A DNA stretch of 64,000 nt, from contig NZ_KE386572.1 of NCBI RefSeq assembly GCF_000427665.1, forward strand, positions 4,030,373 through 4,094,372, written 5' to 3'. Position numbers and translations under genes: made by a program. The notes below the pieces were generated by a model that saw nothing but the letters and a program-made list of their open reading frames with translations, did not search any database and was not told where the DNA came from. Positions 16,955 to 44,240 of the stretch are shown one piece after another (position 1 is the first letter of the stretch; each line of letters begins with the position of its first letter). The DNA comes from Geminicoccus roseus DSM 18922 (GTDB lineage: Bacteria > Pseudomonadota > Alphaproteobacteria > Geminicoccales > Geminicoccaceae).

Positions 16955-17021
16955 CATACGCTTCGTATGCCAATTGACATACGAAGCGTATGCGGAAATA
17001 GTCTCACATACGAGGCGTATA
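16955..17021. promoter_or_regulatory. Three palindromic operators in the TetR/RidA intergenic region
   Basis: Three 15-bp sites share the form CATACG-N3-CGTATG: CATACGCTTCGTATG (16955-16969), CATACGAAGCGTATG (16978-16992) and the near-perfect CATACGAGGCGTATA (17007-17021). The first two are exact reverse complements of each other. Sites start 23 and 29 bp apart, about 2-3 helical turns. They lie 23 bp from the TetR start and 64 bp from the RidA start, as expected for a divergent TetR-type operator cluster. Confidence 0.85.
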
Positions 17022-17505: not shown

Positions 17506-18162
17506 TCAGCGCTCCGCGCGACCCTGGCCGAGCCGGCCGGCCATGCGCACCAGCTCGGCCAGCGAGCCGGCTTCCATCTTCTCCATGACGTGGCGGCGGT
17601 GCACCTTCACGGTGATCTCGCTCAGGCCCAGCCTGGCCGCGATCTGCTTGTTCATCAGCCCGGCGCAGACCAGCCGCATCACCTCCTGCTCGCGCGGGCT
17701 GAGCCCGGCCAGCCGGGCGCGCAGCCCCTCCAGGATCCCGCCGGCCTCGCGGCGCTGGCGGTCGCGCTGCAGGGCGGCCGAGACCGCGTCCAGCATGTCC
17801 TGCTCGCGGAACGGCTTGGTCAGGAAGTCGACCGCCCCGGCCTTCATCGCCCGCACCGACATCGGGATGTCGCCATGGCCGGTCATGAACACGATCGGGA
17901 TCTCGATGCCGGCCTCCGCCAGGCGGTGCTGGAAGTCCAGCCCGCTCACCTGCGGCAGCCGGATGTCGAGCACCAGGCAGCAGGCGGCGTCGGGCAACGG
18001 CCCGCGCACCGAATCCAGCGCGTTGTCGAACAGCGCCACCTCCAGCCCCACCGAGCGGAACAGATGGCCCAGCGCCTCGCGCACCGCCTGGTCGTCGTCG
18101 ACCACCAGCACCACCGGGGCGGCCCGGTCCGAGGTCGGCCATGTCGAGGTCTGGCTGGTCAA
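17506..18162 (-). CDS. FixJ/NarL-type response regulator
   Basis: The 218-residue protein has an N-terminal receiver domain (acidic pocket VVDDDQ, phosphoacceptor Asp in VLDIRLPQVSG, Thr in FMTGHGDIPM, Lys in LTKPFREQD) and a C-terminal LuxR-type helix-turn-helix (LSPREQEVMRLVCAGLMNKQ, ARLGLSEITVKVHRRHVMEK). The linker and HTH resemble FixJ and TodT/StyR proteins. It is divergent from the giant kinase gene, so that kinase and the REC-PAS-kinase are plausible phosphodonors. A close paralogue lies at 33361-34011. Both share MTGHGDIPMSVRAMKAGA. Confidence 0.93.
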   Translation of the reverse strand: MTSQTSTWPTSDRAAPVVLVVDDDQAVREALGHLFRSVGLEVALFDNALDSVRGPLPDAACCLVLDIRLPQVSGLDFQHRLAEAGIEIPIVFMTGHGDIPMSVRAMKAGAVDFLTKPFREQDMLDAVSAALQRDRQRREAGGILEGLRARLAGLSPREQEVMRLVCAGLMNKQIAARLGLSEITVKVHRRHVMEKMEAGSLAELVRMAGRLGQGRAER

Positions 18163-29127: not shown

Positions 29128-29194
29128 CCAGATCCTCCAAAGGCGCAGGGGCCGCGGCCCGGCGATGCCGGGCGGGCCGGATCCCGCTGGCGGC

Positions 29195-29710
29195 TCAGCC
29201 GCGGCGGCCGGCCTCGAACAGGAACCAGACCCGCCCCTCGGCCTCGTCGATCCAGGGCTCCAGCAGGCTGGCGGTGGCGACGTCGCCATGCTCGTCGCAC
29301 AGCGTGTGCATCGCGCGCATCCGCGCCGCCATGTCGGCATTGTCGGAGCGCAGCTCCGCCAGCATGTCGGCGGGCGTGACGAAGTCCGCGTCGTTGTCGG
29401 CGATCCGCTGCAGCCGGCCGACATGGCCGATCGAGCGGATCGTGGCGCCGCCGAGCTTGCGTCCCCGCTCGGCGATGGCGTCGGTCGTGGCCAGGATCTG
29501 GGCGGCCTGGTCGTCCAGCATCAGGTGGTAGTCGCGAAAGTGCGGCCCCGACACGTGCCAGTGGAAGTTCTTGGTCTTCAGGTAGAGGGCGAACATGTCG
29601 GCGAGCAGGCCGGCCAGCGCCGCCGAAAGGTCGGCTTTGGCATTGGCGCCAAGGCCGCCCGGGGTCTGCAGCGGCGCCATCCGGCGGGTCCTGGCATCGT
29701 CCATGGTCAT
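29195..29710 (-). CDS. dps: Dps-family ferritin-like protein
   Basis: The 171-residue protein has the Dps fold: LSAALAGLLADMFALYLKTKNFHWHVSGPHFRDYH, with the ferroxidase His and Asp/Glu residues in NFHWHVSG and FRDYHLMLDDQA. Further helices are IAERGRKLGGATIRSIG and ARMRAMHTLCDEHGDVATA. Dps proteins oxidise iron with peroxide and protect DNA; the N-terminal extension here (MTMDDARTRRMAPLQT) is short and mildly basic, which may allow weak DNA contact. It follows the YdeP-like gene's upstream region on the same strand, 67 bp before it, so both may be read from the dps promoter. An inverted repeat lies 70-160 bp upstream of the start. Confidence 0.85.
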   Translation of the reverse strand: MTMDDARTRRMAPLQTPGGLGANAKADLSAALAGLLADMFALYLKTKNFHWHVSGPHFRDYHLMLDDQAAQILATTDAIAERGRKLGGATIRSIGHVGRLQRIADNDADFVTPADMLAELRSDNADMAARMRAMHTLCDEHGDVATASLLEPWIDEAEGRVWFLFEAGRRG

Positions 29711-29779
29711 GGGGGTAAGCGCCTTCTCTGGTGGGGGGAGCTCCGGCTCTCGCGGAGCGGGAACAGTCTTGCCCCTGTG

Positions 29780-29872
29780 GGCGCCGCGATCTTGGACGTT
29801 TTGCTGCCGCGCGGGCCGCCCTGGCCGCGGCCGGAACATGCAAAAACCACCGCTCCCTCCAAGATCGGCGCC
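29780..29872. promoter_or_regulatory. Imperfect long inverted repeat in the dps/hydrolase divergent promoter
   Basis: The arm GGCGCCGCGATCTTGGA (29780-29796) faces TCCAAGATCGGCGCC (29858-29872), which is its reverse complement except for one extra C, with 61 bp between. The inner part of the first arm continues as the CTTGGACG motif shared with two other divergent promoters (35608 and 42713). The pair could bind a dimeric or looping regulator for dps and the hydrolase. The other bases of 29711-29974 show no gene. Confidence 0.5.
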
Positions 29873-29974
29873 GGCCGCCGGGCGATACTGTCCCGGCCGG
29901 CCGAGCAGGACCTTCGCCGCAACGGCCGAGGCCCTCGTCCGGCATCCCCCCACGTCCATCCCGAGTGACACAGC

Positions 29975-30964
29975 ATGGCCCCAAGCGATCCGGTCATCCA
30001 ACTCCAGGCGTCCCGGCGCCATGTCCTGGTCGGCGCCGCCGGCCTGATCACGGTGACGAGCCTGCCGCTCCTGGGCTGCGCCGACGGCCTGGAAGCGCAC
30101 GCCCCGCCGGCCTCCGGCCAGAGCCCGATCGCGAGCGGTCCAATGGCCCGCTTCGTCACCAGCGACGGCACCGAGATCGCCTACAAGGACTGGGGCTCCG
30201 GTCCGCCGGTGGTGTTCTCCCATGGCTGGCCGCTCTCCGCCGATGCCTGGGACTCCCAGATGCTGTTCATGGCAGGCAACGGCTTCCGGGTGATCGCCCA
30301 TGACCGGCGCGGCCATGGCCGCTCCAGCCAGACCTGGCAGGGCAACGACATGGATCATTATGCCGACGACCTGGCCCAGCTCCTGGACCATCTGGACGTG
30401 CAGGACGCGATCCTGGTCGGCCATTCCACCGGCGGCGGCGAGGTGGTCCGCTATCTTGGCCGGCACGGCTCCGCGCGGGTGGCCAGGACGGTGCTGGTGG
30501 GGGCGGTGCCGCCGATCATGCTCCAGACCGAGGCCAACCCGGGCGGCCTGCCGATCGCGACCTTCGACGCGATCCGCACCGGCGTGGCGGCCGACCGCTC
30601 GGAGTTCTTCCGGACCTTGAGCGGACCGTTCTTCGGCGCGAACCGGCCGGGCGCCGATCCCGCCGCCGGCCTGCGCGAGGCGTTCTGGGCGATGGGCATG
30701 CAGGGCGACATGAAGGCCGAGTACGACTGCATCCGGGCGTTCTCGGAGACCGACTTCACCCAGGACCTGAAGGCGATCAACGTCCCGACCCTGATCGTCC
30801 ATGGCGACGACGACCAGATCGTGCCGATCGCGGACTCTGCTTACCTGAGCGCCGAACTGGTCCGGGACGCCACCCTGAAGGTCTATCCCGGCGCCCCGCA
30901 CGGCCTGACCATGACGCAACCCGATGCGTTCAACGGCGACCTGCTGGCGTTCGCGAAGGCCTGA
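29975..30964 (+). CDS. Tat-exported alpha/beta hydrolase (chloroperoxidase/arylesterase-like)
   Basis: The 329-residue protein begins with a twin-arginine region [20 protein letters not shown] and a lipobox-like LLGCADG, so it may be a Tat-exported lipoprotein. The core is an alpha/beta hydrolase of the non-heme haloperoxidase/arylesterase group: [25 protein letters not shown], the nucleophile elbow VGHSTGGGE, the acid in [12 protein letters not shown] and the base in GAPHGLT. Such enzymes hydrolyse esters or make peracids. It is divergent from dps with the motif-containing intergenic region between. It ends at a strong terminator. Confidence 0.88.
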
Positions 30965-30990
30965 CCTTCCGCCGCGCCACCACCGGCGCG

Positions 30991-31028
30991 AAGGCCCCGG
31001 ACCAGCCGGTCCGGGGCCTTCTTTTTTT
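30991..31028 (+). terminator. Rho-independent terminator after the hydrolase gene
   Basis: AAGGCCCCGGACC and GGTCCGGGGCCTT form a 13-bp stem with an AGCC loop, followed by CTTTTTTT, 27 bp past the stop codon. Confidence 0.92.
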
Positions 31029-31073
31029 GTGCGCGAAGGGATGGAGCCGGCCGGGATGCCCGGAAAACAGGGC

Positions 31074-31115
31074 AAAAAAAGACCCGGCGGTCGGGGGGAG
31101 GAGGACCGCCGGGTC
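31074..31115 (-). terminator. Rho-independent terminator for the AraC-family gene
   Basis: On the minus strand GACCCGGCGGTC and GACCGCCGGGTC form a 12-bp stem with an 11-nt loop, followed by TTTTTTT. It lies about 55 bp past the stop codon of the AraC-family gene and faces the hydrolase terminator. Confidence 0.9.
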
Positions 31116-31168
31116 GAAAGCACCGATCGTAGGGAGGGGACGACCGGTGGGGAAAGGGGTGGTGCCGC

Positions 31169-32131
31169 TCAGGCCGGCAGCTGGATCCGATCGGAGGCCG
31201 GCAGCAGCGGGGCCGCCTGGAACTGGCTGCGGTGGGAGCGGCGCCAGGCGCCGGGGCTGGTCCCGGTGCTGCGGGCGAACACGCGGTTGAAGTGGCTCTG
31301 GTCGGCAAAGCCGCAGGACAGCGCGATCTCGGCGAGCGGCATGGCCGTCTCGCGCAGGAGTTCCCGGGTGCGCTCGACCCGCTGCTCCAGGAGCCAGCGA
31401 TGCGGGGGCATCCCGGTGCACTGCTTGAAGGCGCGGGCGAAATGGCTGAGCGAGAGGCCGCATTCCGCGGCAAGCCTGGCCAGCGGGATGTTGTCGGCGA
31501 GGTTGGCGCGGATCACCTCCTTGACCCGCCGCTCCTGCCAGGGCGCCAGGCCGCCGGTGGCCGCGGGGGTGGGCCGGGCGCCGCCATAGCGCTGGACGAT
31601 GTGGGCGTGCAGGGCCAGGGCGACATGGTCCACGAAGATGCTGCTGGCCTGTTCCGGCCGGCGCAGGGCCGGCAGCAGGGCCAGCCCCAGCCGGCTGGCG
31701 ACCGGGTCGGGCAGGCTCTGGCCGGGCTGGAACTCCAGCATGGCGGCGCGGCGGCTCCCGGCCCGGCCGCAGGCCTCGTCCAGCGAGGCGCGCGGCAGCT
31801 GGAAGTGCAGCATGTCGAACGGGCTGGACAGGTCGGCGCGCCAGGCCTCGCGCAGGTCGTAGATGGCGAGGCTGCCGTTGGCGAAGGTCCCGGTCTGCAC
31901 TGGGCGGCCGTTGCGCCACAGGCGCAGGCCCGGAAGGTCGCGCAGCTGCAAGGAGACCAGATAGGCGTCCTCGCGCGGGTGCGGGGCGGTCATCCCGTGG
32001 CCCGGCCGATCGCAGGCGATCCGGGTGGCGGCGAGCTGGGCGCCGCGCGGCGTCTGGACCAGGAGCGTCTGGGCGGCCTCGATCCGCATATGGGCGGAGT
32101 ATCGCTTCGTGGGCGTGCAGTTGCTCTTCAC
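31169..32131 (-). CDS. AraC-family transcriptional regulator
   Basis: The 320-residue protein has an N-terminal cupin-like ligand domain of the AraC_binding_2 type (residues about 15-200, HGMTAPHPREDAYLVSLQLR) and two HTH motifs at the C-terminus (IPLARLAAECGLSLSHFARA and MPLAEIALSCGFADQSHFNR, then GTSPGAWRR). ATG 32131 is the only good start. The promoter side holds a 19-bp dyad. Genes of the neighbourhood (hydrolase/dps, EmrAB-like efflux, Old Yellow Enzyme, dehydrogenase operon) share a promoter motif, and this is the only AraC-type regulator among them, so it is a candidate controller. That link is inference. Confidence 0.92.
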   Translation of the reverse strand: MKSNCTPTKRYSAHMRIEAAQTLLVQTPRGAQLAATRIACDRPGHGMTAPHPREDAYLVSLQLRDLPGLRLWRNGRPVQTGTFANGSLAIYDLREAWRADLSSPFDMLHFQLPRASLDEACGRAGSRRAAMLEFQPGQSLPDPVASRLGLALLPALRRPEQASSIFVDHVALALHAHIVQRYGGARPTPAATGGLAPWQERRVKEVIRANLADNIPLARLAAECGLSLSHFARAFKQCTGMPPHRWLLEQRVERTRELLRETAMPLAEIALSCGFADQSHFNRVFARSTGTSPGAWRRSHRSQFQAAPLLPASDRIQLPA

Positions 32132-32332
32132 GGAGGTCGTTTCCCGCGTCTTGGGTTCTCGCGGGGAGACCCCGCCGGCATCAGGGGAAACGCTGGCCGA
32201 GGCCGACGGGATGGCGGCGGCGGATCGCTGGATCCTGCGGCCGGCCCGCCCGTTCGGGGCGCGTTTCCTGATCAGAACTTAGGCCGGTCGGGTGGAGTGC
32301 ATCTATTCTGCGCAGGTTTATCCAGCCAGTGC

Positions 32333-32351
32333 ATAGGTCTGTCCGACCTAT
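32333..32351. promoter_or_regulatory. 19-bp dyad upstream of the AraC-family gene
   Basis: ATAGGTC-TGTCC-GACCTAT is a perfect inverted repeat with a 5-nt centre, about 200 bp upstream of the AraC start. The rest of 32132-32414 contains no gene. Closer to the AraC start, GTCTTGGGTTCTCGC (32148-32162) partly resembles the GTCTTGGACGATTCGC motif of other promoters in the region. Confidence 0.4.
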
Positions 32352-32414
32352 ACCAAGGTTTGCCGGGGCAGGCCGGCCTGGCCCCGGCTGCGCCGCCCGA
32401 GGCGGCGGCCGGCT

Positions 32415-32606
32415 TCACCAGAACTCGAACACGATCCCGGCGCCGTGGATCCAGCCGACCGGGGCGGCGCACAGGCCCAGCACCATGAAGCCGATCGCGC
32501 CCTCGGCCATGCAGCGGGCGACATGCTCGGTCCAGAACCAGATGCCGAGCAGGATCAGGGCGAGGTAGTAGAGCGCACCGATTCGTTCGGAGATGGTATC
32601 GCTCAT
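32415..32606 (-). CDS. Small two-helix membrane protein
   Basis: The 63-residue product begins MSDTISERIGALYYLALILL. It has two hydrophobic segments (ALYYLALILLGIWFW and GAIGFMVLGLCAAPVGWI) joined by a short polar turn with HVARCMAEG. ATG 32606 was chosen because a GGGAG site lies 6 bp upstream; a start 27 bp earlier lacks one. I do not recognise the family. It stands alone, with about 260 bp of non-coding DNA upstream (32607-32866) that includes an AT-rich patch near 32812-32846, and no partner is evident. Confidence 0.6.
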   Translation of the reverse strand: MSDTISERIGALYYLALILLGIWFWTEHVARCMAEGAIGFMVLGLCAAPVGWIHGAGIVFEFW

Positions 32607-32866
32607 GACGATCTCCCGGAACGCCGCCCGCAACGTCGGGAGGGCGGCTGCTGGGGGCAGGGCTGGTCGATCAGGGGCGAAGGACGGCCATGGCCGCCCT
32701 GCCGCCTGCTCCGGGCGCCGGTGCCCCAGGGTGGGGAGCGGGTCCAGGCGGCCGGATCACGCCCGCCGCTTCCCGTCCCAACGCGAGGATCGGCCGTCCC
32801 GTCGCGTCCTCCGTTGAATGACCGTTCGTTAACATTTCATTCATGGATGGACAAGATGCCCGGCCG

Positions 32867-33265
32867 TCAGGCCGACGGATCGGGGTCCTGGCGGCGCAGG
32901 GCCTGCTCCAGGCAGTCGATCATGGCCTCGGCGGGAAACGGCTTGGCCAGGAAGCCAATGGCGCCGGCGCGGAGCGCCTGCTCGCGGATCTGCGGCTCGG
33001 GATAGGCGGTGATGATCACCACCGGCACCGTGACGTGCCGGGCCTGGAGGTGGCGCTGCAGCTCCAGCCCGCTCATGCCGGGCATCTGCACGTCCATCAC
33101 CAGGCAGTCCATGTCCTCCGGCCGCGCCGTGGCGAGAAACTCCTCGGCCGAGGCGAACAGCCGGCAGTCGAACCCAAGCGAGCGGATCAGCCCGCCCATG
33201 GCGGCGCGAACCGAAGCGTCGTCGTCGATGATCGCGATCACCGGGTCTGCGGCCAAGCGGGACAT
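32867..33265 (-). CDS. Single-domain response regulator (orphan receiver)
   Basis: The 132-residue protein is a receiver domain only: acidic pocket IAIIDDDAS, phosphoacceptor Asp in CLVMDVQMPGMSG, Thr in VVIITAYPEPQI and Lys in FLAKPFPAEAM. There is no output domain. MSRLAADPVIAIID from ATG 33265 is the simplest start; ATGs further upstream exist, none with a clear ribosome site. It lies 95 bp after the FixJ-type regulator on the same strand, so it probably belongs to that two-component operon. It may serve as a phosphate sink or a competing acceptor, which is inferred. Confidence 0.85.
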   Translation of the reverse strand: MSRLAADPVIAIIDDDASVRAAMGGLIRSLGFDCRLFASAEEFLATARPEDMDCLVMDVQMPGMSGLELQRHLQARHVTVPVVIITAYPEPQIREQALRAGAIGFLAKPFPAEAMIDCLEQALRRQDPDPSA

Positions 33266-33360
33266 CCTGGGGTGGCGCCGGGCGGACATGCCCGGTCGGG
33301 CGGTAGAAGGGACCGCCCACCCATGGACCTCCGGCGACGGGATGAAAATCATACGGAGGT

Positions 33361-34011
33361 TTAGATGCCGGGACGGCCGGGCCGACTGGGCGCCAGGAGG
33401 TCGGCCATCCGCACCAGCTCGGCCAGCGAGCGGGCGTTCATCTTCTTCATCATGTGGCCGCGATGGATCTTCACGGTGATCTCCTGCAGCCCGACCTCCG
33501 CGGCGATCTGCTTGTTCATCAGCCCGGTCACCACCAGCGCCATCACCTCGCGCTCGCGCGGGGTCAGGGTCGCGTAGGCGGCCTGCAGGCTCGCCAGCAT
33601 GGTCTCGTCGGCCAGCCGTGCGCGGTCGCGCTCGATGGCGGCGGCCACCGCTTCCAGCATGTCCTGGTCGCGGAACGGCTTGGCCAGGAAGTCGATGGCA
33701 CCGGCCTTCATCGCCCGCACCGACATCGGGATGTCGCCATGGCCGGTCATGAAGATCACCGGCAGGTGGATGCCGTCGCGGCGCAGCTGGTCCTGGAAGT
33801 CCAGCCCGCTGGTGCCGGGCAGGCGGACGTCGAGCACGATGCAGCCGGGGCCGGTCACCTTGCGGCGCGGCAGGAACTCGGCGGTGGAATCCAGCAGCTC
33901 GACCTGCAGGCCGACCGAGCGGAACAGGCTGTCCAGCGCCAGCCGCATCGCCCGGTCGTCGTCGACCACGAACACGGTTCCGGGCTGGGCGCTCCCGGTC
34001 GGATCGGTCAT
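33361..34011 (-). CDS. FixJ/NarL-type response regulator
   Basis: The 216-residue protein has a receiver domain (VFVVDDDRAMRLALDSLFRS, Asp in IVLDVRLPGTSG, FMTGHGDIPM, LAKPFRDQDML) and a LuxR-type HTH (LTPREREVMALVVTGLMNKQ, AAEVGLQEITVKIHRGHMMK). Its start ATG 34011 overlaps the stop of the sensor kinase as ATGA, so the pair is translationally coupled and clearly cognate. It is a close paralogue of the regulator at 17506-18162. Confidence 0.94.
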   Translation of the reverse strand: MTDPTGSAQPGTVFVVDDDRAMRLALDSLFRSVGLQVELLDSTAEFLPRRKVTGPGCIVLDVRLPGTSGLDFQDQLRRDGIHLPVIFMTGHGDIPMSVRAMKAGAIDFLAKPFRDQDMLEAVAAAIERDRARLADETMLASLQAAYATLTPREREVMALVVTGLMNKQIAAEVGLQEITVKIHRGHMMKKMNARSLAELVRMADLLAPSRPGRPGI

Positions 34012-35480
34012 GGCGCGGCGTCTCCTTGGACCGGCAGGCTGAACTGGATGGTGGCGCCCGGGCCCGGATTGCAGGAGGCGCTGATCCGCCCGCCATGGGC
34101 CTGGACGATCGAGCGGCAGATCGAGAGGCCCATGCCCATCCCGTCCGGCCGGGTGGTGAAGAACGGCAGGAACAGCCGGTCCAGGATCTCCAGGTCGATG
34201 CCGGTGCCGCGGTCCTCCACCATCACCAGCACCTGGCCGTCCTCCTGGCGCCGGGCGCGGACCCAGAGCTCGCGCGGCCGGTCCGCCACGCCCGCCATCG
34301 CCTGGATGCCGTTGATCAGGAGGTTGATGAGCACCTGCTGGAGCTGGACCCGGTCGCCCTGGACCGGCGGCAGGTCGGCCGGCACCTCGCGGGTCAGCAC
34401 CACCTCGTGGCGGAGCAGCTCGTGCTGCACCAGCGCCAGGGCCTGGTCGATCAGGCAGGCCAGGTCGACGGCGGTGCATTCCGGCATGGCCTTGCGGGAA
34501 AGCTCGCGCAGGCCCCAGATGATGTCGCCGGCGCGTTTGCCGTCGGCGATCATCCGCTCGATCGCGGCGCGCACCTCGCCCAGGTCGGGCTCCTCGCGCT
34601 GCAACCAGCGCAGGCCGGCATGGCCGTTGGTCACGATCGCCGCCAGCGGCTGGTTGATCTCGTGCGCGATCGAGGCGGTCAGCTCGCCGAGCGTGGTCAC
34701 CCGGGTGACATGGGCGAGTTCGGCCTCCGCCTGACGCAGGGCTTCCTCGGCCCGGTGGCGCTCGCTGATGTCGGTGTTGGTCTCCAGCACGCCGGTGGAC
34801 CGGCCGCGCTCGTCCCGCTGCAGCGCCCAGCGGCTGGCCACCGCGATCCGGCTCCCGTCCCGGCGCAGCTGCACCAGCTCGCCTTCCCAGCGGCCGGTGC
34901 GCATCAGCTGGGCCTCGATGGTCCCGGCCGGGGCGGGCAGGGTGGTGCGGGTCAGCTCTGCGAACGGCCGGCCGATCGCCTCGGCCCGGGACCAGCCATA
35001 CATCTCCTCGGCACCCCGGTTCCAATAGACCACCACGTCGTCCATGCCGCGGACCAGGACCGCGTCGTGGGTCAGGTCCAGGAGCTCCGCGCGCTCCTGC
35101 AGGGCCATGCCGGCCGACTGGTAGCGCAGCGCCAGGATCGTGGTCATCAGGATCGCGACCAGGCTCACCGCGGCACGGATGGCGGCCGAGCCGAACCCGT
35201 CGGTGCCGTGGGAGAGCAGATAGCCCAGCACGGTCAAAACGGCGCAGCCGGCCGCCACGGCAAGGACACCCCGGCGGCGCAGGAAGCCCGCCGCGATCAG
35301 CACCACCACGCCGTAGAGGACCGCCACCGCGATCCCTAGGCGGGTGAAGGTGTCGATCGAGAAGATCGCCACCACCAGCAGGCCCGCCGTCGTCAGCACG
35401 GCGGCATGGCTGCGCGACATCCGCGCCGCGAGCCCGCTGGTCGGGGCGGACAGCAAGGGATCGCCGGTGGATTCGCTCAT
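34008..35480 (-). CDS. Membrane PAS sensor histidine kinase (FixL/DctB-like)
   Basis: The 490-residue kinase has about four N-terminal hydrophobic segments (for example AVLTTAGLLVVAIFSI, GIAVAVLYGVVVLIAAGF, LAVAAGCAVLTVLGYLL and VSLVAILMTTILALRY, about residues 25-125). A PAS domain follows (VVYWNRGAEEMYGWSRAEAI), then HisKA (GELTASIAHEINQPLAAIVT) and HATPase_c (NLLINGIQAM, VEDRGTGID, GMGMGLSICRSIVQAHGG). It phosphorylates the overlapping FixJ-type regulator. ATG 35480 (MSESTGDP) is the chosen start; ATGs at 35489 and 35492 are alternatives, since no site is strong. A copy of the GTCTTGGACGATTC motif lies 128 bp upstream. Confidence 0.9.
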   Translation of the reverse strand: MSESTGDPLLSAPTSGLAARMSRSHAAVLTTAGLLVVAIFSIDTFTRLGIAVAVLYGVVVLIAAGFLRRRGVLAVAAGCAVLTVLGYLLSHGTDGFGSAAIRAAVSLVAILMTTILALRYQSAGMALQERAELLDLTHDAVLVRGMDDVVVYWNRGAEEMYGWSRAEAIGRPFAELTRTTLPAPAGTIEAQLMRTGRWEGELVQLRRDGSRIAVASRWALQRDERGRSTGVLETNTDISERHRAEEALRQAEAELAHVTRVTTLGELTASIAHEINQPLAAIVTNGHAGLRWLQREEPDLGEVRAAIERMIADGKRAGDIIWGLRELSRKAMPECTAVDLACLIDQALALVQHELLRHEVVLTREVPADLPPVQGDRVQLQQVLINLLINGIQAMAGVADRPRELWVRARRQEDGQVLVMVEDRGTGIDLEILDRLFLPFFTTRPDGMGMGLSICRSIVQAHGGRISASCNPGPGATIQFSLPVQGDAAP

Positions 35481-35607
35481 GCAGCCCATCATTGCGGGAG
35501 GTTGGGGCGGGGCCGCCGGGATTGCTGCCATCCCGTTGCCGGGCGGCCGGCGGCCTCGCCCGGCACCATGGAGTCTCCGAATCCCTCTAAACCGGGCCGC
35601 CGGGCCT

Positions 35608-35621
35608 GTCTTGGACGATTC
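35608..35621. promoter_or_regulatory. GTCTTGGACGATTC motif, copy in kinase/efflux divergent promoter
   Basis: The 14-bp string GTCTTGGACGATTC occurs here, between the sensor kinase (minus) and the EmrA-like gene (plus), and again without change at 42713-42726. No other feature is recognised in the 294-bp intergenic stretch (35481-35774), which is otherwise very GC-rich. Confidence 0.5.
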
Positions 35622-35774
35622 TACAGCGGCCGGGCCCGGGCAGAACGGCCCGGACCGGGCAGGGGCGGACCGGGTCCGGGATGGCCGGATCGGTCAATCG
35701 GCAGGGGGCAGGCGCGACTAGGTTCGGCCGACCTGTCCATGCCGGCCCGTCCCGCCGGGTTTGCGGAACCCCAG

Positions 35775-36932
35775 ATGCCATCGACGACACCGGATCCCGT
35801 CCCGCCACCTGGCCCTGAACCGGCGGCCGCCCTGCCGGCGGCGCCGGCGCCGGGCGGGCTGCGCCGCCTGGCCGTGCCGGTGCTGGCGGTCCTGACGGTG
35901 CTGATCCTGGTCGGGGCGACCAACGCGCGCTTCGACTCATGGGTGGCATCCTCAGACGTGCAGACCACCGACGATGCCAGCATCGATGCCGACACCACCC
36001 GGCTGAGCGCCAGGGTCGGCGGCAATGTCCGCCGGATCCTGGTCCAGGACTTCCAGAAGGTCGAGCAGGGCCAGCTGCTCCTGGAGATCGACCCGGGCGA
36101 CTACCGGGCGGCGCTCGCCGGGGCCGAGGCCACCGTCCGGGCGACGCAGGCGGGCCTGGCCAACCTCGGCAACCAGGCGGAGCTGCAGGGCGCCCTGGTC
36201 GAGCAGGCGCAGCTCGAGCAGGCGGCGGCGCAGGCGCAGGAAAAGCTGGCCAGCCAGGAAGCCGAGCGGCAGCGCCGGCTGGTGGAAGGCGGCATCGCCG
36301 GCACCCGCCAGCGCCTGGAGCAGGCCACCGCGGCCCATCAGGAAGCCGTGGCCAGCTGGAAGGCCAGCGCCGCCGCGGTCCGCGCCAGGCGCAGCCAGCT
36401 GGCCGTGCTGGACGGGCAGAAGGCGGTGGCGCGCGCCCAGCTGGCGGCGGACCGGGCCGCGCGCGACGCCGCCCGCCTGCGCCTGGGCTACACCCGGATC
36501 ACGGCGCCGGTCTCGGGCGTGGCGGGCCGCTTCCAGGTCCGGGTCGGCGACTATGTCACCGCCGGCACCAGCCTGGTCTCGGTGGTGCCGCTGCCGCGGG
36601 TCTATGTCACCGCCCGCTACAAGGAGACGCAGCTGGCGAGGGTCCGTCCGGGCCAGCCGGCCGAGATCGCCGTCGACAGCTTTCCAGGCCAGGTGCTGCG
36701 CGGCCGGGTCGCCCGGCTGTCGCCGGCCAGCGGCTCGGTGTTCGCGCTGCTGCCGCCGGACAACGCCACCGGCAACTTCACCAAGGTCGTCCAGCGGATC
36801 CCGGTCCGGATCGAGCTGGAGCCGGACCAGCCGCTCCTGGCGGCGCTGCGGCCGGGCATGTCGGTGGTCGCCAGCATCCGGGTGGACGGTTCTGAAGCGG
36901 GGCGGACCGAGGAGGGCGCCGATGGCAGCTAG
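35775..36932 (+). CDS. EmrA/HlyD-family membrane fusion protein
   Basis: The 385-residue adaptor has a short proline-rich cytoplasmic tail, one membrane helix (RLAVPVLAVLTVLILVGAT, near residue 35-53) and a periplasmic part with the lipoyl/biotinyl halves (TTRLSARVGGNVRRILVQDF and RITAPVSGVAGRFQVRVGDY). Between them lies a long coiled coil rich in Ala, Gln and Glu (about 110-230). It would link the inner-membrane pump to an outer-membrane channel. Two ATGs (35739 and 35775) fit; neither has a strong ribosome site, and I chose the latter because it starts the proline-rich MPSTTPDPVPPPGPEP. Its end overlaps the pump gene by 11 bp. No outer-membrane factor gene is nearby. Confidence 0.9.
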   Translation: MPSTTPDPVPPPGPEPAAALPAAPAPGGLRRLAVPVLAVLTVLILVGATNARFDSWVASSDVQTTDDASIDADTTRLSARVGGNVRRILVQDFQKVEQGQLLLEIDPGDYRAALAGAEATVRATQAGLANLGNQAELQGALVEQAQLEQAAAQAQEKLASQEAERQRRLVEGGIAGTRQRLEQATAAHQEAVASWKASAAAVRARRSQLAVLDGQKAVARAQLAADRAARDAARLRLGYTRITAPVSGVAGRFQVRVGDYVTAGTSLVSVVPLPRVYVTARYKETQLARVRPGQPAEIAVDSFPGQVLRGRVARLSPASGSVFALLPPDNATGNFTKVVQRIPVRIELEPDQPLLAALRPGMSVVASIRVDGSEAGRTEEGADGS

Positions 36933-38520
36933 CACCGCCAGCCGGCTCGCCCCCGGGCCCGTCTCGATCGGCCTGCCGGCCAACCGTCCGGTCCTGCTGG
37001 TGGCGGGCGCCCTGCTCGGCGCCTTCCTGGTGAGCTTCGACACGAGGCTGTTCGCGGTGGGCCTGCCCGACCTGCGCGGCGCGTTCGGCCTCGGCGTCGA
37101 CGAGGCGTCCTGGCTCGCCACCGCCGCCACCGCGCCGCAGATCCTGATCGCCCCGGCAATCGCCTGGCTGGTGACGGTGTATGGCGCCCACCGGGTGCTG
37201 ACAGGGCCCAGCATGCTCTACGCGCTCGTCTCGGTCGTGATCCCGCTGGTGCGCGACTACCCGACCCTGATCGCCCTGCACCTGGTCCACGGCCTGCTGC
37301 TGGGCGCGTTCATCCCGGCCACGATCTCGATCATCTTCCGCAACCTGCCGACCCGCTGGTGGATCGTCGGCATCACGATCTACGCCTTCCGCCAGGCGTT
37401 CAGCCTGAATGTCGGCGACTGGATCGTGGGGTTCCACGTGCAGCAGGCCGGCTGGGCGTGGCTGTACTGGCAGGGCGCCCTGGTCGGGCCCCTGATGGGG
37501 CTGCTGGTCTGGCTGGGCACGCCGGACGAGCCGGTCAACCGCCAGCTCCTGGCCAGCGCCGACTGGGGCGGCATGATGCTGCTCGGGGCCGGGGTGGCGC
37601 TGATCTATGCCGGGATGGACCAGGGCAACCGGCTGGACTGGTTCCAGTCCGGCACGGTGACCGCGCTGCTGGCCGGCGGCGCCGCGCTGCTGGCCGGCTT
37701 CCTGCTCAACGAGGCGCTGGTGCGGGAGCCATGGGCCCATGCCAGCGCGATCCTGACCCGCAATGCCGGGATCGGCCTCGTGCTGGTGGTGGCCTACGCC
37801 ACCACCAGCCTGAGCAACGCCCAGCTGGTGCCGGGCTTCCTTGCCGGCGTCGCCCAGATGCGGCCCGAGCAGATCGGCCGGCTCCTGCTGCCCTGGACCG
37901 CCCTGCCGCTGCTGGCGATCATGCCGCTTGCCGCCTGGGCCAGCCGGCTGGTCGACGTGCGCTACCTCCTGGTGGCGGGCCTGACCTGCTTCGCGCTGGC
38001 CGGCTGGATGGGCAGCTTCGTCACCCATGACTGGGCGCTGGCGGACTTCGTGCCGCTGGCGCTGGTCCATGCCTTCGCCCAGGGCGTCACCTTCCTGGCG
38101 ATCGTGGTGTTCAGCGTGGCCAATGTGAGCCCGGCCAGGGCCACCGCGTTCTCGGCCTATCTGCAGGTGGTGCGCCTGGACGGCACCGAGCTCTCGCGGG
38201 CGGTGATGACCACCTGGCTGCGCGTGCGCGAGCAGGTCCATTCCCACCTCCTGGGCCTGCATGTGGCGACCGGCGACGGACAGCCGGGCCATGTCCTGGC
38301 CGGGCTGCGCCGGCCGTTCGAGGCGCTGGGCGGCAGCGCCGGGGCCGCCGAGGCGGCGGCCTTGCAGCGCCTGGCCGACCTTGTCCGGCGCGAGGCGCAG
38401 GTGATGGCCTATGCCGACGGCTTCTGGCTGACGTTCTGGGCGGCGATCGCCGGCCTGCTGCTGGTCTGCCTGCTGCGCGCGCCACCCCCCGGGCCCATGA
38501 CCCCGCCGGCCCGGGGCTGA
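36922..38520 (+). CDS. EmrB-type MFS efflux pump (DHA2, 14-TMS)
   Basis: The 532-residue protein has about 14 hydrophobic segments and begins with the DHA2 pattern ALLGAFLVSFDTRLFAVGLPDL (motif D1-like). Residues DEASWLATAATAPQILIAPA continue the pattern. It should export hydrophobic drugs or metabolites by proton antiport with the adjacent EmrA-like adaptor. ATG 36922 sits 11 bp inside the end of the adaptor gene with a GGAGG site upstream. The region after TMS 13 holds an unusual soluble loop (about residues 415-480, VREQVHSHLLGLHVATGDGQ). The substrate is not predictable. Confidence 0.9.
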   Translation: MAASTASRLAPGPVSIGLPANRPVLLVAGALLGAFLVSFDTRLFAVGLPDLRGAFGLGVDEASWLATAATAPQILIAPAIAWLVTVYGAHRVLTGPSMLYALVSVVIPLVRDYPTLIALHLVHGLLLGAFIPATISIIFRNLPTRWWIVGITIYAFRQAFSLNVGDWIVGFHVQQAGWAWLYWQGALVGPLMGLLVWLGTPDEPVNRQLLASADWGGMMLLGAGVALIYAGMDQGNRLDWFQSGTVTALLAGGAALLAGFLLNEALVREPWAHASAILTRNAGIGLVLVVAYATTSLSNAQLVPGFLAGVAQMRPEQIGRLLLPWTALPLLAIMPLAAWASRLVDVRYLLVAGLTCFALAGWMGSFVTHDWALADFVPLALVHAFAQGVTFLAIVVFSVANVSPARATAFSAYLQVVRLDGTELSRAVMTTWLRVREQVHSHLLGLHVATGDGQPGHVLAGLRRPFEALGGSAGAAEAAALQRLADLVRREAQVMAYADGFWLTFWAAIAGLLLVCLLRAPPPGPMTPPARG

Positions 38521-38539
38521 GGTCTGCGAAGCCGCCGGG

Positions 38540-39667
38540 TCAGGCGAAGGCGGCGCCCAGGCGGCGGCCGAGATCGGCGATCTCAAGGGCGACCGGGCGG
38601 CGCTCGGCACCGTAGGCCAGGAGCGCCGCCACCGGGTCGCCGCCGGCGGCCAGATGCCTGGCCAGGGCCATGGCGTCGCCGGCGGCCTTGGCCACGCCCA
38701 TCGCGGTGTGCGGGCGGACCACCGCGGCGGCATCGCCCAGAAGCGCGATCCGGCCGCGGGCCAGGGCCGGGGCCACATGGTCGAAGATGCCCTGGACGAA
38801 CGGCCGGGGCTCGGCGGCCACCGCCAGGGCGAAGGGCGGCGGCAGCAGCCGCGCCGCGTCCGCCACCAGGGCGTCGCGATCCGCCCGGGCCATGCGCCCG
38901 CGCGGCAGATGGAAGGGGTAGGCTTTGCCGTCGGCATCGGTCAGCGCCCGGGCGAGCGAGCCGTCGGCGACCGGCGCAGGCCGGTACCAGACCCAGTTGT
39001 AGCGCCGCTCCCCGGGCGCCACCGATCCGTCGGGGCCGGCCACCAGATAGCCCAGCGCATGGCAGCCGGGCGCGTCGAAGAAGGCGAAGCGGTCGCGCAG
39101 CACCCGTGCCGCCGGGGCGGGCAGGTCCCGCTCGGGCAGGAGGCCGCGCCAGGCCGCATAGCCGGCATAGTCCGGCGCCGCCACCGGTCCGCCGGCCACC
39201 TCGGCGCGCACCGCCGAGCCCAGGCCGTCCGCCCCGATCACCAGCTCGGCTTCCACCACCCGGCCGTCGGCCAGGCGCAGCCGGGCGGAGGCCTCGTCCT
39301 GTCCGGCGGCGACCACCTCTGCGCCCAACAGGTAGCGGCCTTCGGGCAGGCGCTCGCGAAAGCTGCGGAACAGGCGGTCCCAGGAGATCTGGGTCTGCGG
39401 CTGGGCGACCCGGTCGATGATCCTGCCCGAGCGGTCCAGGAAGATGCGCTCGGCAGCGAGCACGCCGATCCTGGCCAGATGCTCGCAGCCGGCCAGGCGC
39501 ATGATCCGAAACACCTCGCGTTGCGCCACCAGGCCGGCGCCGCGCCCCTCCAGGCCGCCGGCCGAGCGCTCGCACACCACCACGTCGTGGCCGGCGCCGT
39601 GCAGCAGCACCCCGGCGAACAGGCCGCCCAGCGACCCGCCGGCGATCGCGATCTTCCAGGAGGGCAT
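38540..39667 (-). CDS. FAD-dependent aromatic monooxygenase (UbiH/dihydroxypyridine-hydroxylase-like)
   Basis: The 375-residue flavoprotein has the Rossmann fingerprint IAIAGGSLGGLFAGVLL, the arginine VVCERSAGGLEGRGAGLV, the DG fingerprint VIGADGLGSAVRAEV and the second FAD motif GRIALLGDAAAVVRPHTAMG. These place it in group A monooxygenases. PHTAMGVAKAAGDA resembles 2,6-dihydroxypyridine 3-hydroxylase, so a hydroxylated N-heterocycle or phenol is a possible substrate. It is convergent with the efflux pair. The nearby molybdenum dehydrogenase operon would also suit heteroaromatic catabolism, which is inference. Confidence 0.85.
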   Translation of the reverse strand: MPSWKIAIAGGSLGGLFAGVLLHGAGHDVVVCERSAGGLEGRGAGLVAQREVFRIMRLAGCEHLARIGVLAAERIFLDRSGRIIDRVAQPQTQISWDRLFRSFRERLPEGRYLLGAEVVAAGQDEASARLRLADGRVVEAELVIGADGLGSAVRAEVAGGPVAAPDYAGYAAWRGLLPERDLPAPAARVLRDRFAFFDAPGCHALGYLVAGPDGSVAPGERRYNWVWYRPAPVADGSLARALTDADGKAYPFHLPRGRMARADRDALVADAARLLPPPFALAVAAEPRPFVQGIFDHVAPALARGRIALLGDAAAVVRPHTAMGVAKAAGDAMALARHLAAGGDPVAALLAYGAERRPVALEIADLGRRLGAAFA

Positions 39668-39766
39668 CGGGAACTCCTTGGCGGGCGAGGCTGCGGGACG
39701 GCCGCAGCAGGCAAGGCTGCGGCGCGGCGGCTGGGGAGGAAATGCGCGAGACCCGGTCCCTGGCGG

Positions 39767-41455
39767 TCAGGCGCTGCCCGGGTGCAGGAAGCGGTGGATG
39801 GCCTGAACCACCACCGAGCCCTCACCGACCGCGGAGGCGACCCGCTTGACCGAGCCGGAGCGAACGTCGCCCACGGCGAACACCCCGGGCGTGGTGGTGG
39901 CGTACGGGGAGGGCAGGGCCAGGCCGTCCCGGTCCTGGCCGGTCAGGACGAAGCCCTTGGCGTCCAGCGGCAGGCAGTCGCCCAGCCACTCGGTGTTGGG
40001 CATGGCGCCGATCATCACGAACAGGCTGCCGACCTCGCGGGTCTCCTGCTGGCCGCTCTGGCGGTCCTGCCAGGTCACCCGGCGCAACAGCGTGTCGCCC
40101 GCCAGCGCCACCACCTCGGTGAAGGGGTGGACGGTGATCTTCGGCGAGGTTTCGATCCGGCGGACCAGATAGTCGGACATGGTGGCGGCCAGGCCCGGCC
40201 CGCGCACCAGCACGTGGACGTGGGCGGCGGTGCGGGCGAGGAACACGGCGGCCTGGCCGGCCGAGTTGCCGCCGCCCACCACCGCCACCTCCTCCGCCTC
40301 GCACAGGCGCGCCTCCATGGCGGTGGCGGCGTAATGGATGCCCTGGCCCTCGAACCGGTCGTAGTCCGGCAGGTCGAGCTTCCGGTAGCGGGCGCCGGTC
40401 GCGACCACGACCGCGCGGGCCTGCACGCTGGAGCCGTCCTGCAGGTCGATCCGGTAGGGCAGGCTGGCGCAATGGAGTGCCCGGGATGCCCGCGCCAGGG
40501 CCAGGTGCGCGCCGAACTTCTGCGCCTGCGCCTGGGCGCGTCCGGCGAGCGCGGCGCCGGAGATGCCGGTGGGGAAGCCCAGATAGTTCTCGATCCGGGT
40601 GGTGGTCCCGGCCTGGCCGCCCGGCGCCTCCTGCTCGACCACGATGGTGGAAAGGCCTTCCGAGGCGGCATAGACCGCCGCCGCCAGGCCGCCCGGCCCG
40701 GCGCCGACCACCGCCAGATCGAACGGCTCCGCCGCGTCGATCCGCTCGGTCAGGCCCAGCTGCCGGGCCATCTCGTAGGTGGAGGGGTTGCGCAGGACCA
40801 GCCGGCCGGGTGCGATCACCGCGGGCAGGTCGGCCGGGGCGAGACCGAACTCCCGCATCAGGCCGGCGGTGGTCTCGGTGTCCCGCTCGGCGGCCACCGG
40901 GCGGTGCGGGTAGCCGTTGCGGACCAGGAAGCGCTGCAGGCGCAGGGTGCCGCCGTCATGGCTGCCGCCCAAGAGGATCACCCCGCCGAGCCCGTGCCGG
41001 ATGAAGCCGACCCGGCGCAGGATGAAGGCGCGCATCACGATCTCGGCGATGTCGGCCTCGGCCGCCAGGAGGCGGCGGAAGGAGGGCTGGCCGATCCGGA
41101 CCACCCGGCTCTCGACCGCGGCCTGGCAGCTCACCAGGATCTCGCGATCGTTCAGGAGGTTCATCTCGCCGGTGAACTGGCGGGCGCTGTGGGTGGCGAA
41201 GACGTGGCGCCCGCTTTGCGGGTGCTCCTCGAAGACCTCGACCTCGCCCTCCAGCACCAGGAAGAAATCGACCCCGCGCTCGCCCCGCCGGTAGAGCAGG
41301 GTTCCGGCCGGGACGGCTTCCTCGCTGCCATAGGCCGCGATCCGGGCCGCCATCTCCGGGAGGAGGCGCGGAAAGGTCTGGTCCGGACGCAGGTAGGGAT
41401 CGGTGGGATCGCCCGGGTCGTTCCCAAGCGGCGCTGCGGCGGTTGGCTCGGTCAC
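39767..41455 (-). CDS. cNMP-binding domain fused to thioredoxin-reductase-like FAD enzyme
   Basis: The 562-residue protein has an N-terminal cyclic-nucleotide-binding domain (about 30-150, LLYRRGERGVDFFLVLEGEV and ARQFTGEMNLLNDREILVS). A short linker region follows, and then a TrxR-like fold from about residue 250: FDLAVVGAGPGGLAAAVYAA, GQAGTTTRIENYLGFP, VVATGARYRKLDLP, VAVVGGGNSAGQAAVFLA and the closing GVFAVGDVRSGSVKRVASAV. The site that carries CxxC in true thioredoxin reductases reads HYAATAMEA, so there is no redox disulfide. GTG 41455 starts VTEPTAAAPLG with a GAGGAG site 6 bp away. The reaction is unknown; cNMP or another ligand may gate it. Confidence 0.86.
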   Translation of the reverse strand: MTEPTAAAPLGNDPGDPTDPYLRPDQTFPRLLPEMAARIAAYGSEEAVPAGTLLYRRGERGVDFFLVLEGEVEVFEEHPQSGRHVFATHSARQFTGEMNLLNDREILVSCQAAVESRVVRIGQPSFRRLLAAEADIAEIVMRAFILRRVGFIRHGLGGVILLGGSHDGGTLRLQRFLVRNGYPHRPVAAERDTETTAGLMREFGLAPADLPAVIAPGRLVLRNPSTYEMARQLGLTERIDAAEPFDLAVVGAGPGGLAAAVYAASEGLSTIVVEQEAPGGQAGTTTRIENYLGFPTGISGAALAGRAQAQAQKFGAHLALARASRALHCASLPYRIDLQDGSSVQARAVVVATGARYRKLDLPDYDRFEGQGIHYAATAMEARLCEAEEVAVVGGGNSAGQAAVFLARTAAHVHVLVRGPGLAATMSDYLVRRIETSPKITVHPFTEVVALAGDTLLRRVTWQDRQSGQQETREVGSLFVMIGAMPNTEWLGDCLPLDAKGFVLTGQDRDGLALPSPYATTTPGVFAVGDVRSGSVKRVASAVGEGSVVVQAIHRFLHPGSA

Positions 41456-41541
41456 CTGCGTCTCCTCATGGCGGCGGGAGAATGGGCGTCCCGGCGCGGG
41501 ATCCCCGGACGGTCCGCGCCGGGAAGGAAAGGCCAGGCCGG

Positions 41542-42645
41542 TCAGCCGGCGGCGGCATCCGCATGGACCGGCGCGGCGCGCGGATAGTCGGTGTAGCCCT
41601 CCGGCCCCTGGGTGTACCACGTCTCCATGTCGTCCGGGGCCAGTGGGAGGCCGTGGCGGATCCGGTCGGGCAGGTCCGGGTTGGCCAGGAAGCCGCGCCC
41701 GAACGCGATGGCGTCGGCCTCGCCCCGGTCCAGCGCCGCCTGGGCCTTCGGCCCGTCATAGTCGGAGTTGAGCACGAGCGGGCCGGTGAACGCCTGGCGG
41801 ATCGCCGGGTGGACGGGCGGGTGGTCCGGCTTGCCGCGGGTGCCGTCCGGCCCCGGCTCGCGCAGCTCCAGGAACGCGATGCCGATCCGGCCGAGCTCGG
41901 TCGCGGCGGCGCGGAACAGCGGCACCGGATCGGGATCGGTGACGCCCTGGGAATCGCCGTTCGGCGAGAGCCGGACTCCGGTGCGGTCCGCGCCGATGGC
42001 GCCGGCCACCGCCTCGACCACCTGGACCAGCAGGCGCATGCGGTTCTCGATCGAGCCGCCATAGGCGTCGGTGCGGTGGTTGGCGGCGGCGCGCAGGAAC
42101 TGGTCGATCAGGTAGCCGTTGGCGGCGTGGATCTGCACGCCGTCGAACCCGGCGGCCAGCGCGTTGCGGGCGGCCTTGCGGTAGTCGTCCAGGATCGCCG
42201 GGATCTCGTCCACCTCCAGCGCGCGGGCCTGCGCGTGGGGCTGCTTGCCGGCATAGGTGTGGGCGAAGCCCGGCGCGGTGGTGGCCGAGGCCGACACGCT
42301 CTGGCCGCCGTCCAGGAAGCTCGGGTGGACGATCCGGCCCATGTGCCAGAGCTGCGCCACGATCCTGCCGCCCTCGGCATGGACCGCCTCCACGACCGAC
42401 GCCCAGCCGTCGACCTGCTCCTGGTTCCACAACCCGGTGGCATAGGCCCAGCCCAGGCCCTGCTGGCTGATCCCGATCGCCTCGCTGATGATCAGGCCGG
42501 CCGAGGCGCGCTGGCGGTAGTAGTCGGCCATCAGCGGGGTCGGCACATGCGCCCGGGTGCCGCGGCCGCGGGTCAGGGGCGCCATGAACATGCGGTTGGG
42601 AGCCTGGATCTGGCCCAGGCGGATCGGGTCGAACAGCGAGGTCAT
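41542..42645 (-). CDS. Old Yellow Enzyme-family NADH:flavin oxidoreductase
   Basis: The 367-residue FMN enzyme begins SLFDPIRLGQIQAPNRMFMAPLTRGRG, the OYE/NemA opening. It shows the FMN-site QLWHMGRIVHPSF, the substrate motif HAANGYLIDQFLR, GGSIENRMRLLVQVVEA and the phosphate-binding AIAFGRGFLANPDLP. It reduces activated C=C bonds, nitro groups or reactive electrophiles with NAD(P)H. HAANGY replaces the usual H-x-x-N/H; it keeps the His-Asn pair. ATG 42645 (MTSLFDPIRL) is the conserved beginning. It is divergent from the cytochrome c/dehydrogenase operon with a GTCTTGGACGATTC copy between. Confidence 0.92.
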   Translation of the reverse strand: MTSLFDPIRLGQIQAPNRMFMAPLTRGRGTRAHVPTPLMADYYRQRASAGLIISEAIGISQQGLGWAYATGLWNQEQVDGWASVVEAVHAEGGRIVAQLWHMGRIVHPSFLDGGQSVSASATTAPGFAHTYAGKQPHAQARALEVDEIPAILDDYRKAARNALAAGFDGVQIHAANGYLIDQFLRAAANHRTDAYGGSIENRMRLLVQVVEAVAGAIGADRTGVRLSPNGDSQGVTDPDPVPLFRAAATELGRIGIAFLELREPGPDGTRGKPDHPPVHPAIRQAFTGPLVLNSDYDGPKAQAALDRGEADAIAFGRGFLANPDLPDRIRHGLPLAPDDMETWYTQGPEGYTDYPRAAPVHADAAAG

Positions 42646-42712
42646 GCTTGGACTTTCGATCGGGGGACGGGCTCGGATGCCAGGCCGTCTATCCGGCGGC
42701 GGAGCAATCCGG

Positions 42713-42726
42713 GTCTTGGACGATTC
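42713..42726. promoter_or_regulatory. GTCTTGGACGATTC motif, copy in OYE/cytochrome c divergent promoter
   Basis: This is the second exact copy of GTCTTGGACGATTC. It lies 68 bp upstream of the Old Yellow Enzyme start and 132 bp upstream of the cytochrome c start. About 38 bp further on, CTTGTCGG (42764-42771) faces CCGACAAG (42804-42811), a second inverted repeat. No gene is seen in the stretch 42646-42857. Confidence 0.5.
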
Positions 42727-42857
42727 GCTGCCGGCCAAGGTGGCTCGGCCGGAACGGCATGTCCTTGTCGGTAATCAGCAGGATGGTCCAACCAACTCAA
42801 GATCCGACAAGCCGGTTCCGGGCCTACCTGCTCCATCGCATCCAGCACGAGAAGCGG

Positions 42858-44240
42858 ATGGAAACGATGCGGCTGCGACGGTGGATCATGGGAGTCGTGG
42901 CGGCGGGCGCCCTTCTGGTCGGCGGCTTCCTGGTCCTGGCCTGGCGGTTTCCGATCCCGCCGGTCGACCCGCCCGCCGCCTCCGGCTTCGAGCCCGCCCT
43001 GGTCCGCCGGGGCCAGGAGCTGGCGCTGCTGGGCGACTGCCGGACCTGCCACACCGCCAAAGGCGGCCAGGAACTCGCGGGCGGCCTGCCGATGCCGACC
43101 CCGTTCGGCACGATCTATTCCACCAACATCACCCCCGATCCCGCGACTGGCATCGGCAGCTGGTCCGAGGCGGCGTTCGCCAGGGCGATGCGGGAGGGGG
43201 TGAACCGGCTGGGGCAGCATCTCTACCCGGCCTTTCCCTACGACCACTTCACCCGGATCGGCGACGAGGACCTGCGGGCTCTCTACGCCTACGTGATGAC
43301 CCGCGATCCGGTGCAGGCCCTGGTCCCGCCGAACCGGCTGGTGTTCCCGGTCAACATCCGGCTGGTGCTGGCCGGCTGGAAGCTCCTGTTCCTGGACCAG
43401 GGCCGCTTCGTGCCCGACCCGTCCCGGGACGCCGCCTGGAATCGCGGCAAGTACCTGGTCGACGGGCTCGGCCATTGCGGCGGCTGCCACACGCCGCGCA
43501 ACCTGATGGGCGCCGAGGAGGCGGGCCGCGCCCTGGCCGGCGGCCAGGCGGAGGGCTGGGATGCGCCGGCGCTGGGACCGGCCTCGCCGGCACCGGTGCC
43601 CTGGGACGAGGCGGCCCTGCGCCAGTACCTGCGCCAGGGCTTCCACCCGCTGCACGGCAGCGCCCGGGGCCCGATGGCGCCGGTGGTCCGCAACCTGGCG
43701 GACGCGCCCGACAGCGACGTCGCCGCCATTGCCCACTACCTGGCCTCCTTGGGGAGCGGCGCGGGCGGCGCCGGGCCAGGTCCGGCCGGGCCGCACCGGC
43801 CGGTGCCGGCGGGGGATGCCGCGGCGCCCGGGCGCCGGGCGGCTTCCGCGGGCCTGCAGGCCGCCACGCCGGCTGCCCCGGACCAGCCCGGCGCCGCCCT
43901 GTACGCCGCCGCCTGCGCGTCCTGCCACGAGAGCGGCAGGGAGCTGCCGCTGGGGGCGGTGGACCTGGGCCTGTCGACGGCGCTCGCCGGACCGGGCCCG
44001 GCCAACCTGGTGAACCTGGTGCTGGAGGGCGTGCCGGCCGAGAGCGGGCAGGCCGCCCCGGTGATGCCGGGCTTTGCCGGCATGCTGTCCGACGCGCAGC
44101 TGGTCGATCTTGCCGGCTACCTGCGCGGCGCGTTCACCGACAAGCCTGCCTGGACCGGGATCGAGGCCGTGGTCCGCACGGCGCGCGCCGCCGCCAGGCC
44201 TGCCATGCCAACCGCCCATCCGGCCGGAGCGCCCCGATGA
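42858..44240 (+). CDS. Tri-heme cytochrome c subunit of a molybdenum dehydrogenase
   Basis: The 460-residue protein has an N-terminal membrane anchor (IMGVVAAGALLVGGFLVLA) and three CxxCH hemes: CRTCH, CGGCH and CASCH. Each is in a cytochrome c domain resembling the alcohol dehydrogenase cytochrome subunit (VRRGQELALLGDC, AWNRGKYLVDGLGHC, AAACASCHESGRELPLG). The third domain follows a Pro/Ala/Gly-rich linker (about residues 300-345). It would take electrons from the molybdenum subunits to the respiratory chain. ATG 42858 has a GAGAAGCGG site; 42867 is an alternative. Its TGA overlaps the next start (ATGA). Confidence 0.9.
   Translation: METMRLRRWIMGVVAAGALLVGGFLVLAWRFPIPPVDPPAASGFEPALVRRGQELALLGDCRTCHTAKGGQELAGGLPMPTPFGTIYSTNITPDPATGIGSWSEAAFARAMREGVNRLGQHLYPAFPYDHFTRIGDEDLRALYAYVMTRDPVQALVPPNRLVFPVNIRLVLAGWKLLFLDQGRFVPDPSRDAAWNRGKYLVDGLGHCGGCHTPRNLMGAEEAGRALAGGQAEGWDAPALGPASPAPVPWDEAALRQYLRQGFHPLHGSARGPMAPVVRNLADAPDSDVAAIAHYLASLGSGAGGAGPGPAGPHRPVPAGDAAAPGRRAASAGLQAATPAAPDQPGAALYAAACASCHESGRELPLGAVDLGLSTALAGPGPANLVNLVLEGVPAESGQAAPVMPGFAGMLSDAQLVDLAGYLRGAFTDKPAWTGIEAVVRTARAAARPAMPTAHPAGAPR

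Follow-up and report, generated by a model that had tools for sequence, protein, structure and literature searches.

Three gaps between divergent genes, located within 13 kb around an araC-type gene, share one asymmetric sequence motif in one orientation and at a near-constant distance from a start codon, and this motif is real, local and probably regulatory. We propose that the sites are bound by the AraC-type regulator encoded among them and that they define a small local regulon, a proposal for which we see the chances as evenly balanced.

The sites and the genes around them

The initial annotation of the window, by which we mean the whole stretch of 64,000 nucleotides analysed, had reported that the 14-mer GTCTTGGACGATTC occurs twice, at 35608-35621 and 42713-42726, and a search of the window found both copies. 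The variant ATCTTGGACGTTTT that it gave at 29789-29802 is also there and has 3 mismatches to the 14-mer, at both ends and at one internal base. A further copy that it had noticed upstream of araC, GTCTTGGGTTCTCGC, is present as described but has only its first 7 bases in common with the others; it is counted here as weak, and araC itself has no clear site upstream. The common form of the three sites is RAAWCGTCCAAGAY when read toward dps, the histidine kinase gene and the Old Yellow Enzyme (OYE) gene, and on the minus strand they read AGCAAAACGTCCAAGAT, GTAGAATCGTCCAAGAC and AGCGAATCGTCCAAGAC, respectively (Table 1). All three have the same orientation and are 67-78 nt from the start codon. 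Each site is asymmetric, and GC precedes the R of RAAWCGTCCAAGAY in two of the three; this GC half is common to sites 2 and 3 and is missing from site 1. Sites 2 and 3 also share CTTGGACGWTTNGCTGCC, which has no other match within 2 mismatches in the genome. Inspection by eye in the plus-strand direction found no -10 element downstream of TTGGAC.

Table 1. Sites and genes of the locus, in window coordinates
Feature	Position	Strand	Remarks
Site 3	29789..29809	-	CGGCAGCAAAACGTCCAAGAT toward dps; 78 nt upstream of ATG at 29710
Site 1	35608..35621	-	GAATCGTCCAAGAC toward histidine kinase operon; 76 nt upstream of start at 35531
Site 2	42713..42733	-	CGGCAGCGAATCGTCCAAGAC toward OYE gene; 67 nt upstream of ATG at 42645
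Weak site	32148..32162	-	GTCTTGGGTTCTCGC on the plus strand; 16 nt upstream of araC GTG start
Second CTTGGAC copy	42647..42653	-	At OYE start codon; 68 bp from CTTGGAC of site 2
Dps/ferritin-like protein	29195..29710	-	Downstream of site 3
Alpha/beta hydrolase	29975..30964	+	Divergent from dps
AraC-type regulator, 320 aa	31169..32131	-	HTH_18 at 220-298; candidate binder
FixJ-type response regulator (receiver + GerE)	33361..34011	-	Rival candidate binder
PAS sensor histidine kinase	34008..35531	-	First gene downstream of site 1
HlyD/EmrA-type membrane fusion protein	35776..36932	+	Divergent from kinase; start by eye
Old Yellow Enzyme, N-ethylmaleimide-reductase-like (below curated cut-off)	41542..42645	-	Downstream of site 2
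Cytochrome c protein	42858..44240	+	Divergent from OYE gene; start by eye

That the sites lie in divergent gaps, as had been stated, holds when start codons are judged from homologues and length, but longer ORFs cross all three sites, and a crude gene caller placed all of them within ORFs; their gap status thus depends on the judged starts of dps, the kinase gene, the OYE gene and their divergent partners. For araC the GTG start is favoured because annotated plasmid homologues start 12-18 residues upstream of the position of the inner ATG. Since all three gaps are divergent, the plus-strand genes could also be targets. A search for sigma-70 promoters found none in 29000-44000, an uninformative result as shuffled sequences gave only 0.5.

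The gene identities in the initial annotation agree with Pfam, which assigned ferritin-like (Dps), alpha/beta hydrolase, AraC HTH_18, PAS histidine kinase, HlyD/EmrA-type, FMN oxidoreductase (the OYE) and cytochrome c families. The AraC-type protein has a C-terminal HTH_18 domain (E 2e-28) that is matched by the AraC, Rob and RamA chains. Its residues 1-194 gave no Pfam match, and the N-terminal part is predicted to be rich in strands as far as residue 113 (mean pLDDT 68, pTM 0.50). The kinase, the FixJ-type regulator and a single receiver make up a second local candidate system. This FixJ-type regulator has a paralogue at 17506-18162; the two share 77% identity over 577 bases and include one stretch of 53 bases without a difference.

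Two other repeats were noticed in the window. An inverted repeat, ATAGGTC-5-GACCTAT, is at 32333-32351, with araC on one side and on the other a small ORF (32415-32603) that resembles a membrane protein; it is possibly the operator of another regulator. At 16955-17021 three near-identical palindromes, CATACGNNNCGTATR, stand in tandem (the third recognised by eye) and adjoin an apparent minus-strand regulator gene; this row is likely an operator array.

Chance expectation and distribution of the motif

This window is rich in G+C and has many exact 14-mer repeats, among them 404 directly repeated 14-mers, and therefore the pair alone proves little. By improbability it ranks 14 among 3200 exact repeats of the window and first among the gap-to-gap matches. 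When sets of gaps were simulated with an order-2 model of the gaps, an equally improbable pair was found in 9 of 400 sets in one run and in 163 of 6000 in the other. A third gap that matches the 14-mer with no more than 3 mismatches adds little, as 7 of the 9 extreme sets in the 400-set run had one. A third gap matching one copy at 18 of 20 bases, which the real window has, was present in none of the 6000 sets, all these statistics having been devised after the sites had been seen.

In the 5.7 Mb genome, base composition predicts 0.17 copies of TCTTGGACGWTT; 3 were found, which are the three sites and are all in one orientation, and the reversed control pattern was found once. For the suggested refuting condition, that the motif be equally common inside genes, the outcome is mixed: there are no more exact copies in genes or elsewhere, but near matches are not in excess over the reversed control. 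With up to 2 mismatches, GTCTTGGACGWTT matched 122 places in the genome against 150 for the reversed control. Outside the window there are 7 one-mismatch places, 5 of them in coding frames and 2 in gaps, with L202 counted as coding and L200 as a gap after crude gene calls were checked. The other gap match, L198, is upstream of a gene that reads as atpH from its translation, and the sister genome G004 does not conserve this site. In L200, around 1501-1513, GAACGTCCAAGAC is in a divergent gap between ArsR-methyltransferase-like and mlaA-like genes, named from their translations; this match is possibly an extra target and possibly chance.

Across 387 genomes of the class, GTCTTGGACRWTT matched 120 places, in 97 of the genomes, compared with about 135 for the reversed control (hand count). 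The matches inspected in G181, G071, G304 and G236 and in L189 of the genome itself are all in coding frames. In G156, a genome with an AraC homologue, the two matches are coding or ambiguous and neither is at its AraC. Because near matches are not in excess in the genome or the class, nothing points to a large regulon. Within the family, beyond which the order contains no genomes, an 18-base pattern matched with at most 1 mismatch in 2 of 31 genomes, namely this one and one with a coding match. The AraC-type protein was found at E <= 1e-30 in only this genome among the 31 (and among the 22 of good quality). In 19 family loci with cluster-like DNA, TCTTGGACGWTT was not found within 1 mismatch, and 5 of them had 2-mismatch matches.

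Two other readings of the sites were rejected. A repeat element was discarded because the four gap sequences can be aligned only at the sites and because the 20 repeat families listed, of at least 60, lack the sites. For sigma-54 promoters, the -24/-12 consensus was used as the yardstick; GG-N10-GC is in two sites and absent from site 1, and by eye the elements are off consensus.

Homologous loci and the site in Acidisoma

Homologues of the AraC-type protein elsewhere (about 31-47% identical) neighbour hydrolase genes, kinase and fixJ pairs, an OYE gene (L034) and dps (L042), and because of these recurring neighbours the shared gene company is probably not accidental. At such distances true orthologues may have gone unseen. 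Conservation of the motif upstream of orthologues, which had been suggested as a check, was not found in most homologous promoters examined, with the exception of Acidisoma; the upstream regions of most araC, hydrolase, OYE, kinase and fixJ homologues do not have it. In 86 such regions TTGGAC/GTCCAA occurs at 0.41 per kb against a background of 0.28, but the count of 21 behind this figure is inflated by L046, which was clipped to almost the whole locus, and omits the Acidisoma site, the start of the hydrolase gene having been extrapolated incorrectly. No common spaced word was clearly above shuffles in 57 homologous upstream regions (best 7 vs 6), and in 18 homologue loci the best gap-to-gap words were, by eye, unlike the motif.

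Of 111 homologue loci, three have exact AAWYGTCCAAGAY: L034, L049 and L071. The L071 site is within coding DNA and was discounted as regulatory. In L049 (Burkholderiales), AATTGTCCAAGAC is flanked by a cupin-like gene and by an AraC gene whose product differs in its N-terminal part; it was set aside as a coincidence or a distant echo. When the loci were divided by residues of the second helix-turn-helix, exact sites were in 3 of 45 HFNR loci (L071 included) and in 0 of 66 others, a test that is biased because FADQSHFN had been a search seed. Azospirillum L040 has TTCTTGGACGATTCC in the gap beyond fixJ, and it was not seen in L037.

L034 is Acidisoma cellulosilyticum, whose AraC is 45% identical to that of the window. 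Among homologues with readable helices (the pattern left many loci at greater distance, and L262, unread) it is the only one in which both recognition helices, SHFARAFK and ADQSHFNRVF, are identical to those of the window protein. In Acidisoma AATTGTCCAAGAC is 87 nt upstream of the ATG of the clustered alpha/beta hydrolase gene, in the same orientation as in the window, and its fourth base is T, unlike in the window. The 6.0 Mb Acidisoma genome has AAWYGTCCAAGAY in two places, this promoter and one within a gene read as acyl-CoA synthetase; the reversed control was found once. A site with at most 1 mismatch to the window consensus is expected 0.0005 times per 350 bp in one orientation and 0.05 times per whole Acidisoma locus, figures for one genome that was noticed after the fact. 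Neither of two OYE genes near the Acidisoma AraC has an exact site, and one has a two-mismatch match across its start codon. In the family of Acidisoma the AraC is found at E <= 1e-50 in 12 of 397 genomes, Acidisoma included. Twelve other AraC loci of that family, searched about 1.5 kb on each side, had no match within 1 mismatch, and in the 11 of these with readable helices the two were never both identical.

The proposed regulator, its rivals and known systems

The initial annotation had read the motif as the binding site of a shared regulator and had named the AraC-type protein as the obvious candidate. The shared site is well supported in three gaps by its uniqueness, clustering, orientation and distance from the start codon. 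That the AraC-type protein is the binder can reasonably be inferred, and one independent hint, the identical helices and the hydrolase site in Acidisoma, supports it; against it are the absence of a clear site at araC itself, the GC half missing from site 1, the lack of an excess of near matches and the little conservation. In our model the AraC-type regulator, probably ligand-controlled, would bind the sites, its two helix-turn-helix motifs contacting DNA adjoining or over the -35 region. Once bound, and presumably in response to an inducer, it would switch on the minus-strand genes, namely dps, the kinase operon and the OYE gene, which would be the controlled members of the divergent pairs. 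The outcome would be a small local regulon for stress or electrophile detoxification. A broader idea, possible but rather doubtful, is that a detoxification cluster of patchy distribution brings along both an AraC-type regulator and the operator of that regulator, so that this genome and Acidisoma share the helices and AAWYGTCCAAGAY upstream of cluster genes while the operator is otherwise scarce in gaps.

The main named rival is the FixJ-type regulator at 33361-34011, which would bind site 1 to autoregulate the kinase operon and would also act at the remaining two gaps. Two-component systems commonly regulate themselves, the kinase operon does have a site, and homologues of FixJ and the kinase recur beside AraC homologues. 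Yet by eye the motif is not clearly palindromic, GTAMGTAG is absent from the window, TTGGAC/GTCCAA is missing from 13 of 13 fixJ and 6 of 7 kinase upstream regions, and the paralogue at 17506 has no 14-mer match within 2 mismatches nearby; we consider this reading quite unlikely. Binding of the three sites by an unrelated regulator whose gene lies in another part of the genome is unlikely. In its favour, the comparative data link the motif firmly to no protein, and two of the seven places with one mismatch beyond the window, L198 and L200, are in gaps; against it, every exact site is within 13 kb around araC, and G004 does not conserve the atpH site. Chance similarity without function is distinctly improbable. 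It gains from the frequency of exact 14-mer repeats in the window, the 163 null sets with an equally improbable pair, the ease with which a third gap within 3 mismatches arises, the lack of a genome-wide excess of near matches, the little conservation and a statistic picked after the sites had been seen; on the other side are the absence of a third gap at 18 of 20 bases from all null sets, the fixed orientation and spacing, the Acidisoma site and the three copies of TCTTGGACGWTT where 0.17 are expected, although the reversed pattern was found once.

A literature search by motif letters found, judged by titles, no paper on the motif, and a search for papers joining AraC with XapX, DoxX and similar proteins also found none. 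The AraC subgroup concerned is uncharacterised, and in several soil bacteria its members are found next to hydrolases, Old Yellow Enzymes, Dps and FixJ-type systems. If the AraC-type regulator is the binder, the sites provide this subgroup with an operator that is ready for use, and hence a route to its inducer. In other respects this would be a routine local regulon, and local gene control of this type is commonplace.

Among known systems, the FixJ regulons of Alphaproteobacteria resemble the cluster in having a FixJ-type regulator and a PAS kinase. PMC4999443 gives FixJ sites as imperfect 18-bp palindromes or GTAMGTAG/GTAGTTTCCC, and the window motif does not fit the motifs given there. Local AraC/XylS-type regulators with an N-terminal sensor are alike in HTH_18, in a predicted beta-rich N-terminal part and in a gene amid likely targets, but residues 1-194 of the window protein are without a Pfam match. 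The MarA-SoxS-Rob class is alike in its AraC-family DNA-binding domain and its stress genes and appears to be alike in its non-palindromic site of fixed orientation near the promoter; it differs in that the window motif has, by eye, at least 3 mismatches to the marbox GCAnnwwntgnnaaa, and the window regulator is longer, has an N-terminal part and would have a local regulon. According to PMC12052159, MarA class II sites are non-palindromic, in forward orientation and overlap -35, and by this comparison the layout of the sites appears to resemble a forward class II marbox more closely than FixJ sites.
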